Assembly (NCBI GenBank): GCA_963924555.1
Contig: OZ004589.1
Span: 558,001 to 622,000 of the forward strand
Source of the DNA: Crambe crambe
Taxonomy: Eukaryota; Porifera; Demospongiae; Poecilosclerida; Crambeidae
Reading direction: 5' to 3'
Length of the DNA: 64,000 bases
Part shown: positions 682 to 41,165 of the stretch, one piece after another
Position numbering within the stretch: the stretch's first letter is position 1
Layout of the letters: every line of letters starts with the position of its first letter
The notes under the pieces: model-generated
Database searches by the model: none
What the model saw: the letters and a program-made list of their open reading frames with translations, nothing else
Told to the model about the DNA's origin: nothing
Translations under genes and position numbers: made by a program

Positions 682-3600
682 TCAGGGTACAACCACCACT
701 TCATATTGCCCCTCTTCTGTTCCTTTCACATCCACAACAGATGGCACTGAACTTTGACCTTGGGGGGTAACAGGAACATAGGCGGGGCAGGTGGTGATTT
801 CATAATCACCACCAGAGGCGGCTGGAAGGGAGGACTGTGCAGCTGGTTTTGTTGGAGGGACTTGTGGGGGAGGATCTTTGCTGTACTGTTCTAGGTCCTC
901 GTAGTTGTGTTGCTCTTCGGATATCGTGTTCAGCACATTCAGTTGAACAGTTCCATCTCTATGAAATGACAATTAGTAATGACATCATATTAAGTTATAA
1001 ATAACTTACTTGGTAGTCATCTCAATAGTATCACGATGATTCTTATGATGTAAAATAATGATGACAAGAATGATGATTGTTATGGCAACAGCTATGGCAA
1101 CAATGACTCCAATGGCAACCCCAATCACTACACCAGTGTAGTTTTGTGAGACAGATGTGGTGGAGCCTTCATTTCCTGTCACAGTTGTAGTCATAGTGAT
1201 AGTATTCCTGCACTCATTCTCATTGAAGGAGGTTATGGCTACAGAACAAGAACTGTCTATGGCAAGTAGCTGAAATTGTACAGAAATGGAGGCACCAGAG
1301 GACAGCCATTCAGTGATGTCTTCAATCAAGTCAGGGACACAAGCTTTCAGAGTTCCATGGAGTTCTGCTCGGTAAGTGACAGCATTAGGAGAGGAAGGGA
1401 AGCAGAGAAAACCTCCATTTCTGATACGGTCCATTGAGAAGTCACACACACAACGAGATGCAACACTTTGAATTATGGCATTGACTATGTCTCTATTCTT
1501 GCTTGAAGGGTCCTCAGCCTATCATAGATTGGTAAGTGGAATCATATTCAACTAACTAGTCATCTACTTGCCTTCCAATTTCGGCAATTTTCTATTCCAA
1601 TCAACCGTAATTGAAAAGGAGAAGCTGGAGGATCAAATCTTATCATAACAATGGTATAATGATTAAATAAATTCTTACTTTCCACAGTGACTGTGTGTGT
1701 GGCTGATACAGTCACTGGATGAAGATGAGGCACATTGATCGGACGAACAGTCACAGAGCAAGTGTAGTCTCCATTGTCTCCCCTCGTCTCATCCAGGGAG
1801 GTGAACACCAGACTACTCTGGTAGACGAGTGGTCCAACCTCTACTGCTCCCTCGTCAACACTCATTCGACTGTTTGAAGTGAGGACAGAGCCTGACTTGC
1901 TCCACTGAGAGGAAACACTGACTCTATACTCAATGAGCGTTGGGAGCTGAATGTGACAGGTCAGGTTGAGTTGGAGACCAGAGAAGTAGTGTGAATTGAT
2001 GGGAGAACCAGTAATGGTGACATTGGGTGAAGGACTGGAAACACTACGTACAATGATTGCTTCAGAGTCTGCATCGAAAGAAAAAGGGTAAAGATTGCAA
2101 ACTATCGTAGCTATAATCATTAGAGACCTGGTCCACTGCTAAGACCATCAGAGGTCAGAGTACCAACAATAACTGTGTAGTCCGTGGCAGGATTAGTATC
2201 AGTAAATGTGGTACTGTTCTGATCCCCTGGTACTGTCCTGGTGAGTGGCCCAGTCTGTCTCTTCCGGGAACCACCTGGTGTCAATATCACTGTGTAATTG
2301 ATGAACCCCTTAGCCTCGACAAGGGTCAAAGGTTCCCAGGTAACTGTCAAGATGTTAACATTGTCTATAGATCGTGTGATGTTGACCTTCCCAGGAGCAA
2401 CAGAAGGGACTGTGTACATGCATGAGTGAGATAGGTAGACCACAATGAATCATTCTTTTGGTCAAAGCTACAGTAGTCAATAGTGCACCTCACCTCCTTC
2501 AACAGTAAAACACACTTTATTGGTGATGAGACCACATCCAGCTGGGTTACGAGGCCTCACTGATACATTGTATGGAATACCCATTGCTGCAATATTACAA
2601 GAATACATCACTACAATGAGTCAAAGTTAATGGTACAGTACACTCACCAACCCCTGAGTCTACGACAGCCTTCAAAGATGCAGGGGGGCCTAATTTGACA
2701 TTCTTAGAAAAAGGTGGAGTGAGAGGTCTTGTGATGGCTCGTTTGACAGCAGACTCAGGCTGGACATACTCTGTGACCTCCACTACATAATCAATGACAC
2801 TATCAGCATGGAGGGAGGGAGGTCCCCAGTTGAAGGAGAGAACACTGCTACCAGAGGAGGAACACACCAATCCTGTCACCTGACCAGGTTCTGCAGGTAT
2901 AATGATGATATTGCAAAGTAGATAGTGATAACTTTTGTACCTATGGAAGATAGTGTGAAGGAGATGGTGTTACAGAGGTTCACCACACCAGTCTCAGGGA
3001 TGTTCACGCAGACATAAAGTGTGTATCTTCCTGTGTTATTGCCAACACGTAAGGATCCTTGATTAACTGTGTAGCCACCAGTGGTGGTTGAGATATTTTG
3101 ACCAGAAGGAACTTGCCAGGTGTAACTGAATGTGGGATTACCACTAGGGATGGGAGTGAGAGTGACATTACTGGTCAAAGTAACCACTTCATTCGTTATG
3201 CATTCATCAGTGAGAATTGATCTAGTAATCACTAGATGAAGGTACTGAACTGTGATGTTGTGTGAGGCTTGTCTACTGAGGAAGACATTGGCCTCAGGTA
3301 CATTGACACTGGCCATGCAGGAGTACTGTCCTCCATGACTCGTGTGGAGGGGGGCAAAGGTGAGGGACAGGTTGTTGGAAGACCTGGACACTGTCACATC
3401 CACTAGAGTCTCATTCCCAATGATACTTCCATTAGGTGCTGTCCACTGAATCAGGAGTGGGGCCCTGAGAGCTTGTTCCAAGGTCACAGTACAGGTGAGG
3501 GTGTGGTTGACTCCAGCAGTGGATTCACCAGCAGACTCAATCCTCACCATAGGGGCACTGGGAACTGAGAATAGTACAGACACAGTTCACTATCAGTAAT

Positions 3601-40629: not shown

Positions 40630-41165
40630 CTAGTATTATAGTGGCATTGTGATTCATTGTATTGTTCATATCAGGCACCACACAGGTGTAGGTTCCAAGT
40701 GGTGTCATGGCATTATTCCTGCGATTCAGACGAACTTGATGAGTGAAGCCACTCCTAGTGAAGTCACCATCTGGACTGTCACTGTTGCGAGGGACCATGT
40801 TTCCATCAGGAAAGAACCACTCCTCCACATTCCCTCCATCCTTTCCTCTACAGCAGTTAGTGTTGACATTGGTGGTGATGCACACAAGAGAAGATCCAGG
40901 ATCAGATGTATATTCACCCACTAAGGTACTAACTCCAATATCAGTGATGAGTATAGTGTCATTAGGTTGATACACAACACCATTCAAAGTGAAATACAGT
41001 CCTGTGCTGGGAGCTGCAGGACAAAATTGAATACACTTTGGTTGAATTATCACTAGCTACCATCTTCTACTTACCTTGACAGATGATGGTGTGTTTCGTT
41101 CCTAGTATTAGTAGCAGAGTTAGTGCAGGCACTAACCTGCACCTCTGCCAAACTGAGAGTGACAT
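40630..41165 (-). CDS. Detached receptor 5' exons: signal peptide plus N-terminal Ig
   Basis: Exon 1 (41075-41165) encodes M-S-L-S-V-W-Q-R then a hydrophobic L-T-L-L-L-I-L core and ends in phase 1, giving a secretory signal. Exon 2 (40630-41013) encodes the same Cys-Cys type N-terminal Ig as receptor copies 1-3 (N-C-C-R-G, E-E-W-F-F-P-D-G, Y-T-C-V-V-P-D) and ends in phase 1 with a good GTGAG donor. No EGF, FN3 or tail exons follow before 35106. Either these exons splice over about 5.5 kb to copy 3, which lacks its own signal exon, or they are what is left of a fourth copy. Confidence 0.7.

Follow-up and report, generated by a model that had tools for sequence, protein, structure and literature searches.

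A tandem array of Ig/EGF/FN3 transmembrane receptors in the sponge Crambe crambe, probably part of a complex of diversifying recognition receptors

Three long receptor genes and the array around them

The 64,000-nucleotide window analyzed here, positions 558001-622000 of contig OZ004589.1 (C12 below; assembly GCA_963924555.1) of the demosponge Crambe crambe, carries three long transmembrane (TM) receptor genes built of immunoglobulin (Ig), EGF, and fibronectin type III (FN3) modules. The three, named A, B, and C, follow one another head to tail, all on the minus strand, and are ~90% alike over 5 kb. On sequence evidence, we consider it probable that they belong to a multigene complex of diversifying membrane recognition receptors, of which the window captures a part; genome searches covered 143 Mb in 119 contigs.

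In a self-blastn of the window, A pairs with B (446-6212 / 12585-18286) at 89.7% identity, A with C (1209-6200 / 28167-33094) at 90.5%, and B with C (13319-18274 / 28158-33094) at 91.2%. A preliminary description of this locus had called the copies near-identical over most exons, which is too strong: the exons of gene B share 81-98% of their nucleotides with those of five other array genes. Spliced models and exon-by-exon matching give the coding blocks counted in Table 1, with no in-frame stop in any matched block. From N to C terminus the order is CCR1, EGF, FN3a, FN3b, CCR2, Ig3 to Ig8, FN3c, FN3d, Ig9, a membrane-proximal cysteine-rich domain with the TM segment, and a tail. The exon-type names are coined here, CCR1 denoting an outer, Ig-like exon in which a CCR motif is conserved. 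There are 1+4 EGF exons in A, 2 in B, and 7 in C. Position 682 is the end of the gene A stop codon, and 41165 the start methionine of a signal exon.

The Ig/EGF/FN3 transmembrane make-up given in that description is borne out by the exon order and by Pfam, which recognizes EGF_CA, EGF_3, Ig_3, I-set, and fn3 in the gene C ectodomain, with EGF_CA, Ig_3, and fn3 far above their cut-offs; Ig_3 and I-set, both above cut-off, place the protein in the immunoglobulin superfamily (IgSF). Other parts are less readily named. At E 0.01 neither CCR1, CCR2, nor the tail finds a Pfam family, and the membrane exon with the tail finds three weak Pfam models only, all below cut-offs. A profile of eight CCR1/CCR2 exons listed 11 weak matches in the PDB, the best being LRRC4B (E 0.012); by their names, we take 10 of the 11 to be Ig-domain proteins. 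The membrane-proximal domain alone has no Pfam match even at E 1, and a SEA-like label for it, which rested on resemblance by eye, was dropped since neither Pfam nor the PDB offered a useful match.

The first exons admit some latitude. In gene B a signal exon begins ~155 nt ahead of CCR1, and so does one (41070-41165) ahead of the last CCR1 of the window; gene C lacks one within 330 nt of its CCR1 exon. Gene C may therefore start with the exons at 40.6-41.2 kb, perhaps at 41165 itself, and hence contain two CCR1 domains. As for copy number, the three full-length head-to-tail genes of the preliminary description stand, on both self-blastn and models, and its additional partial copy at 8.5-10.8 kb probably belongs to gene A. 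A separate fourth receptor at that place was set aside in favor of an extra block of gene A because a gene at C12:498-516 kb repeats the FN3a-FN3b-CCR2-Ig3 unit four times in a single run.

Table 1 Receptor features in the window (strand and positions relative to the 64,000-nucleotide stretch).
Feature	Position	Strand	Basis
Receptor gene A (stop codon to CCR1 exon), 23 coding blocks, FN3a-FN3b-CCR2-Ig3 unit twice	682..10828	-	models, exon matching; no stop
Receptor gene B, 16 coding blocks + signal exon	12801..21994	-	models, exon matching
Receptor gene C, 21 coding blocks, 7 EGF exons	27679..35106	-	models, exon matching
Gene A probable extra block EGF-FN3a-FN3b-CCR2-Ig3' (the former partial copy)	8561..10150	-	exon matching
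Gene A signal-like exon, no in-frame ATG	10936..11010	-	sequence reading
Gene B signal-peptide exon	21914..21994	-	comparable exon precedes other array CCR1 exons
Signal exon (41070-41165) + CCR1 exon (40628-41008): either the start of gene C or a partial copy D	40628..41165	-	exon matching
CCR1 exon, gene A	10478..10828	-	exon matching
CCR1 exon, gene B (reference for site numbering)	21453..21839	-	exon matching
CCR1 exon, gene C	34721..35101	-	exon matching
FN3b exon, gene A main unit (omega of this exon type ~2 in array)	5532..5852	-	exon matching
FN3b exon, gene A extra block	9308..9625	-	exon matching
FN3b exon, gene B	17603..17920	-	exon matching
FN3b exon, gene C	32429..32746	-	exon matching
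Membrane-proximal Cys domain + TM exon, gene A	1009..1518	-	exon matching
Membrane-proximal Cys domain + TM exon, gene B	13128..13637	-	exon matching
Membrane-proximal Cys domain + TM exon, gene C	28006..28476	-	exon matching
Cytoplasmic tail exon, gene A (YEDL, YVPV, YEVV; Pro-rich)	682..963	-	models, exon matching
Cytoplasmic tail exon, gene B	12801..13082	-	models, exon matching
Cytoplasmic tail exon, gene C	27679..27960	-	models, exon matching

Read over 262 kb (C12:360-622 kb), the array comprises nine long receptor copies at C12:466-593 kb. Seven of them—A, B, C, and those at 498, 520, 532, and 541 kb—yield 154 matched blocks without an in-frame stop, the copy at 532 kb being devoid of FN3a, FN3b, and CCR2. 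The other two are reduced: at 466 kb, two blocks contain stops and eight matches are partial, and at 483 kb the blocks Ig4 to Ig9 are missing. Detected EGF modules range from 0 to 19 per long copy. Tandem copies thus display gain, loss, and decay of whole genes, of EGF modules, and of multi-domain modules, as read from their sequences. Sponge genomes are sometimes highly heterozygous, and haplotypes stacked as tandem copies during assembly could produce an array of this kind. We consider such an artefact very improbable, as the copies lie ~10% apart, differ in EGF number and in module blocks, and stand as nine long copies within one run.

The tail exon spans 96 residues in its open frame, and the tyrosine motifs that the preliminary description attributed to every copy are present as YxxPhi motifs in the tails of array genes. 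Six of the seven intact genes have three (YEDL, YVPV, and YEVV or YEVM), and in the seventh the match ended before the third. For gene B, three motifs compare with 0.94 in shuffled tails (P 0.04), which is weak when taken alone. Strict immunoreceptor tyrosine-based inhibitory, activation, or switch motifs (ITIM, ITAM, ITSM) occur in none of the 11 array tails, four of which are broken or incompletely read. The signaling marker of the Hydractinia and Botryllus candidates, whose receptors are described as bearing ITIM or (hem)ITAM motifs (PMC12065747), is therefore missing from the sponge tails. Nor is there a kinase domain, a stop codon closing the tail exon in all three genes of the window; PF07714 is absent from the matches listed at C12:0.08-1.1 Mb (121 of 1944 candidates scored). 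A link to tyrosine-kinase receptors was considered at C12:2.40 Mb, where the membrane exon finds a 36% match (E 4.7e-4) near kinase exons and where a TM segment and a kinase start lie, and was dropped because this weak match is mostly TM.

Signs of diversifying selection on CCR1 and FN3b

All selection data are differences between paralogues of one genome. Pooled Nei-Gojobori estimates, drawn from five to eight array genes per exon type and 20 CCR1 copies after two copies with stops were dropped, give FN3b a ratio of nonsynonymous to synonymous change (dN/dS) of 1.92, with dN exceeding dS in 15 of 15 pairs of six genes. FN3d (0.97), CCR1 (0.91), FN3a (0.90), and FN3c (0.80) follow, then CCR2 and Ig3 to Ig9 (0.49-0.69), the membrane exon (0.41), and the tail (0.33). 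Maximum likelihood, applied to 15 exon types with custom MG94-type code and a single tree for each, places omega in the array at 2.08 for FN3b (n=13; likelihood ratio test (LRT) against 1, 12.1), 1.26 for CCR1 (n=21, LRT 4.6), 0.60 for Ig3 (LRT 8.6), and 0.44 for the membrane exon (LRT 19.1). After Bonferroni correction over the 15 exon types the FN3b result remains significant, and that for the CCR1 mean is lost. Constraint on the membrane exon recurs in copies outside the array (omega 0.37, n=6, LRT 44.5).

Individual sites were called by a grid method of FUBAR type, again with custom code. CCR1 has 31 positive and 43 negative sites of 127 (n=61 copies), FN3b 7 and 11 of 106 (n=36), CCR2 two positive of 114 (n=13), and the membrane exon no positive and 56 negative of 163 (n=14). 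By FN3 topology, many of the FN3b positive sites presumably fall in the BC, C'E, and FG loops. When array and external copies are run apart, the same sites tend to return: of 22 and 26 positive CCR1 sites 15 are common (hypergeometric P 6e-8), and of 10 and 6 in FN3b five are common (P 1.4e-5). Restriction to gap-free columns and separate half-trees leaves 20 positive sites in CCR1 and 12 in FN3b. Neutral simulations with varying site rates returned no positive site in five of five CCR1 runs, and 1, 0, 3, 0, 1, and 1 in six FN3b runs. Within the array alone, FN3a (n=15), Ig3 (n=15), Ig4, Ig7-8, the membrane exon, and the tail show no positive site, and Ig6 and Ig9 show one each.

Introns add a contrast of their own, that between FN3a and FN3b having diverged by 3.0% over 12 copies and its flanking exons by 10.6 and 8.5%. 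Across all introns, divergence runs from 1.3 to 33%, so there is no uniform neutral clock and this contrast is supportive only. The 64-nt intron of gene B between Ig5 and Ig6 (~16091-16154, minus strand) is 1.3% diverged over seven copies, beside flanking exons at 4.0-5.6%.

An Ig/EGF/FN3 make-up is frequent in adhesion proteins, and the genes might be structural or developmental adhesion molecules, hemicentin- or LAR-like, that were amplified in tandem under relaxed constraint on their outer domains. Consistent with this, the best PDB sequence match of FN3b is an FN3 of receptor phosphatase F (E 9.4e-8), and maximum-likelihood omega lies near 1 in several exon types of the array and in external FN3b copies. 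Relaxation, however, lifts omega to 1 at most, not to 2.08, and gives no recurrent positive sites next to many conserved ones. Because of the FN3b value in the array and the recurrence of positive sites, we regard a structural role as unlikely.

Several results do weigh against diversifying recognition receptors as the explanation. Outside the array, FN3b omega is 1.12 and not different from 1 (n=23, LRT 0.7), and CCR1 omega is 0.79, with the test pointing toward constraint (n=40, LRT 12.1); the tail omega of 0.57 is itself indistinguishable from 1 (LRT 2.8). At a threshold of 0.75 the FN3b overlap becomes marginal (10 common of 61 and 12, P 0.05). Array-only counts for Ig5 (13), FN3c (21), and FN3d (14) are erratic, and are set aside as unreliable because only seven or eight copies of each were available. 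Gene conversion among copies breaks the single-tree model, a problem that half-trees do not cure, and the neutral simulations were modeled without recombination or misalignment. The wide spread of intron divergence belongs here as well, as do AlphaFold models of CCR1 (pLDDT 42.6) and FN3b (36.7) that are too low in confidence to use.

What the paralogues show, then, is signs of diversifying selection on CCR1 and FN3b, a constrained membrane exon, and a tail with few amino-acid changes, the outer-domain signal being weaker in external copies. The preliminary description of clustered, fast-evolving Ig-type receptors with tyrosine tails holds up, in positive selection on outer domains and in changes of gene and module number alike.

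The wider complex and its neighborhood

Relatives of the array extend along C12 and beyond. The tail exon occurs at 28 genomic places, 25 on C12 from 213 kb to 1.08 Mb, including same-tail relatives at C12:0.90-1.08 Mb, and three on C5 and C19. The membrane exon has 95 genome matches, 32 of them at C12:0.43-1.08 Mb. CCR1 is more abundant, with at least 150 matches (288 candidates); of the best 60, C12:0.085-1.04 Mb holds 38 and C10:5.74-6.10 Mb holds 17, the other five lying elsewhere. This second cluster on C10 sits beside a large Calx-beta cluster (6.13-6.58 Mb).

Four array CCR1 exons are followed by another form of membrane domain. At the three of these loci that were read, a Pro/Thr-rich, mucin-like stalk is read in the same open frame as the membrane domain and TM segment, and further downstream are open frames with other tyrosine motifs, their splicing inferred from frames only. 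CCR1 precedes both long ectodomains and mucin stalks, and the same outer domain therefore stands on at least two scaffolds. This arrangement suggests that a single variable domain is displayed on different scaffolds, long receptors and short mucin-stalked ones. In the CCR1 tree, which has few supported forks, the long and the short receptors are not resolved as distinct clades; we take this as a hint of domain exchange between the classes, one with which a single origin of the short class is compatible. The copy nearest to gene B differs from exon to exon, which fits the expectation of unequal exchange or conversion and also weakens single-tree methods. EGF modules show no homogenization within genes, identity being 0.818 within and 0.819 between genes.

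Other features lie between and beside the receptors. A 47-bp minisatellite of 9.4 copies (window 1-441) comes just after gene A. On the minus strand, two pieces 89% similar (23336-26380 and 41513-44470) fall between and beside the receptors, the second with a muniscin mu homology domain, and a helicase piece (38570-38881; Pfam DEAD, RecQ-like by eye) stands between gene C and the last CCR1 exon. On the opposite strand, tandem FN3 exons 84-90% alike (60163-61540, plus) perhaps represent a receptor-type gene with an internal duplication. The plus strand also carries exons of an NRPS-like adenylating enzyme (49564-56584) with AMP-binding and AMP-binding_C matches and a phosphopantetheine site below its cut-off, and the minus strand an intronless open frame of 1203 residues (50234-53845) with chlamydia-type polymorphic outer membrane protein repeats (Pfam Chlam_PMP; TIGR01376 POMP_repeat). 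Elsewhere in the genome, one of the seven peptidase-C1 fragments read (C15:872765-872893) has what we take, by its signature, to be a silicatein-type serine active site, in keeping with a siliceous sponge.

Possible ligands and comparison with known systems

If the array does encode diversifying recognition receptors, the partner bound by CCR1 and FN3b would be a changeable molecule carried by another cell or by a microbe. The number of EGF and other modules would set reach or avidity, and phosphorylation of tyrosines in the tail (YEDL, YVPV, YEVV) would signal that binding has occurred and recruit SH2/SH3 proteins.

The preliminary description had gone further and assigned the array to self/non-self recognition. 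A diversifying, recognition-type family is likely; the assignment itself now stands as one of two comparable readings, given that the strict ITIM/ITAM marker is missing and that the same data also suit microbe recognition. In an allorecognition complex, the receptors, or sets of receptor and ligand sharing CCR1, would decide sponge fusion or rejection as Alr does in Hydractinia. Clustered IgSF receptors with tyrosine tails and fast outer domains, and a variable CCR1 domain common to long and short receptors, lend this reading tentative plausibility. Graft outcomes in Amphimedon are replicable and were attributed to a polymorphic genetic system (PMC5450542), and candidate proteins are, according to the available text of a review, not conserved between sponges, cnidarians, and ascidians (PMC12065747). 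On the other side are the tails, unlike those of the Hydractinia and Botryllus candidates, and the available main text of the graft transcriptome paper, from which the terms immunoglobulin, EGF, fibronectin, and receptor tyrosine are absent (PMC5450542).

Alternatively, the paralogues may constitute a germline-encoded repertoire that diversifies against pathogens, symbionts, or food bacteria, as has been proposed for the sponge SRCR and NLR families. We hold this to be a serious possibility, if short of an even chance, and the diversification measured is indeed between paralogues. Low-microbial-abundance sponges are cited as richer in Ig-like and FN3 genes, and microbial patterns alter the expression of Ig-superfamily genes in Aplysina and Dysidea and of hemicentin-like TM genes in Aplysina (PMC6208332); Halichondria, moreover, has putative cytokine receptors with Ig and FN3 domains (PMC8242945). 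These genes come from other species, however, and are not established as members of the present family. Some of the microbe-responsive genes decrease rather than increase (PMC6208332), and in Halichondria, as far as the available text relates, no pattern-recognition receptor was differentially expressed after LPS (PMC8242945).

A more specific proposal, which we consider rather doubtful, is a sponge Ig-type histocompatibility complex of ~1 Mb, in which a hypervariable CCR1 would be carried on long, short mucin-stalked, and further scaffolds, and receptors and their polymorphic partners would share the module and be co-updated by gene conversion. We found no account of the present complex among the titles and abstract openings listed in searches of open-access literature, which is not proof of novelty.

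Sponge self/non-self recognition genes are little known, and aggregation factors are the candidates named in the available text of reviews. For a lineage that branched early among animals, the complex on C12 provides a candidate region that can be genotyped and, in CCR1 and FN3b, two candidate domains for specificity, their sites named. Were the ligand conspecific, clustered IgSF receptors would be the material from which recognition loci arose in sponges, cnidarians, and tunicates alike; were it microbial, the complex would be a large germline immune repertoire of a kind outside the usual lists of sponge immune receptors.

Among known proteins, hemicentins likewise combine many Ig domains with EGF modules. 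They are secreted matrix proteins with a vWA domain, whereas the array receptors have a TM segment and tail, and the Pfam scan of the gene C ectodomain (E 0.01) found no vWA. Aggregation factors, like the array, are candidates for sponge cell recognition, and are known for Calx-beta, VWD, and Wreath domains, none of which appeared in that same scan. Among the matches listed, Calx-beta (150 of 1021 candidates scored) is concentrated on C10 and C3, with one match at C12:3.86 Mb, while those of VWD gather on C8 and C1, with one at C12:1.85 Mb. Linkage of the array to aggregation factors was accordingly rejected: VWD matches lie on C8 and C1, and the Calx-beta cluster abuts the CCR1 cluster on C10, not the array.

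Other sponge Ig-domain proteins are the receptor tyrosine kinase and the Ig-like adhesion molecule of Geodia cydonium (cited in PMC12018476 and PMC11999971); unlike the Geodia kinase, the tails of the array stop without a kinase domain. In Botryllus, the fuhc locus of ~800 kb holds clustered fester/FcoR receptors (PMC12065747), and is similar as a large locus of clustered recognition receptors. It differs, in a comparison by available description and not by sequence, in its Ig/Sushi make-up and ITIM/hemITAM signaling. ITIM/ITAM motifs are, in the same review, what links the cnidarian and tunicate candidates (PMC12065747).

Closest in kind, by analogy of architecture and not of sequence, appears to be the Alr system of Hydractinia. 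The sponge array departs from it in long EGF/FN3/Ig ectodomains, a membrane-proximal cysteine domain, and the lack of strict ITIM/ITAM motifs. Alr proteins, too, have a variable outer domain, and both systems consist of clustered IgSF membrane receptors with tyrosine-containing tails. The allorecognition complex of Hydractinia comprises 41 IgSF genes (Huene et al. 2022, as cited in PMC11999971), and the sponge array shares with it the organization of a tandem complex.

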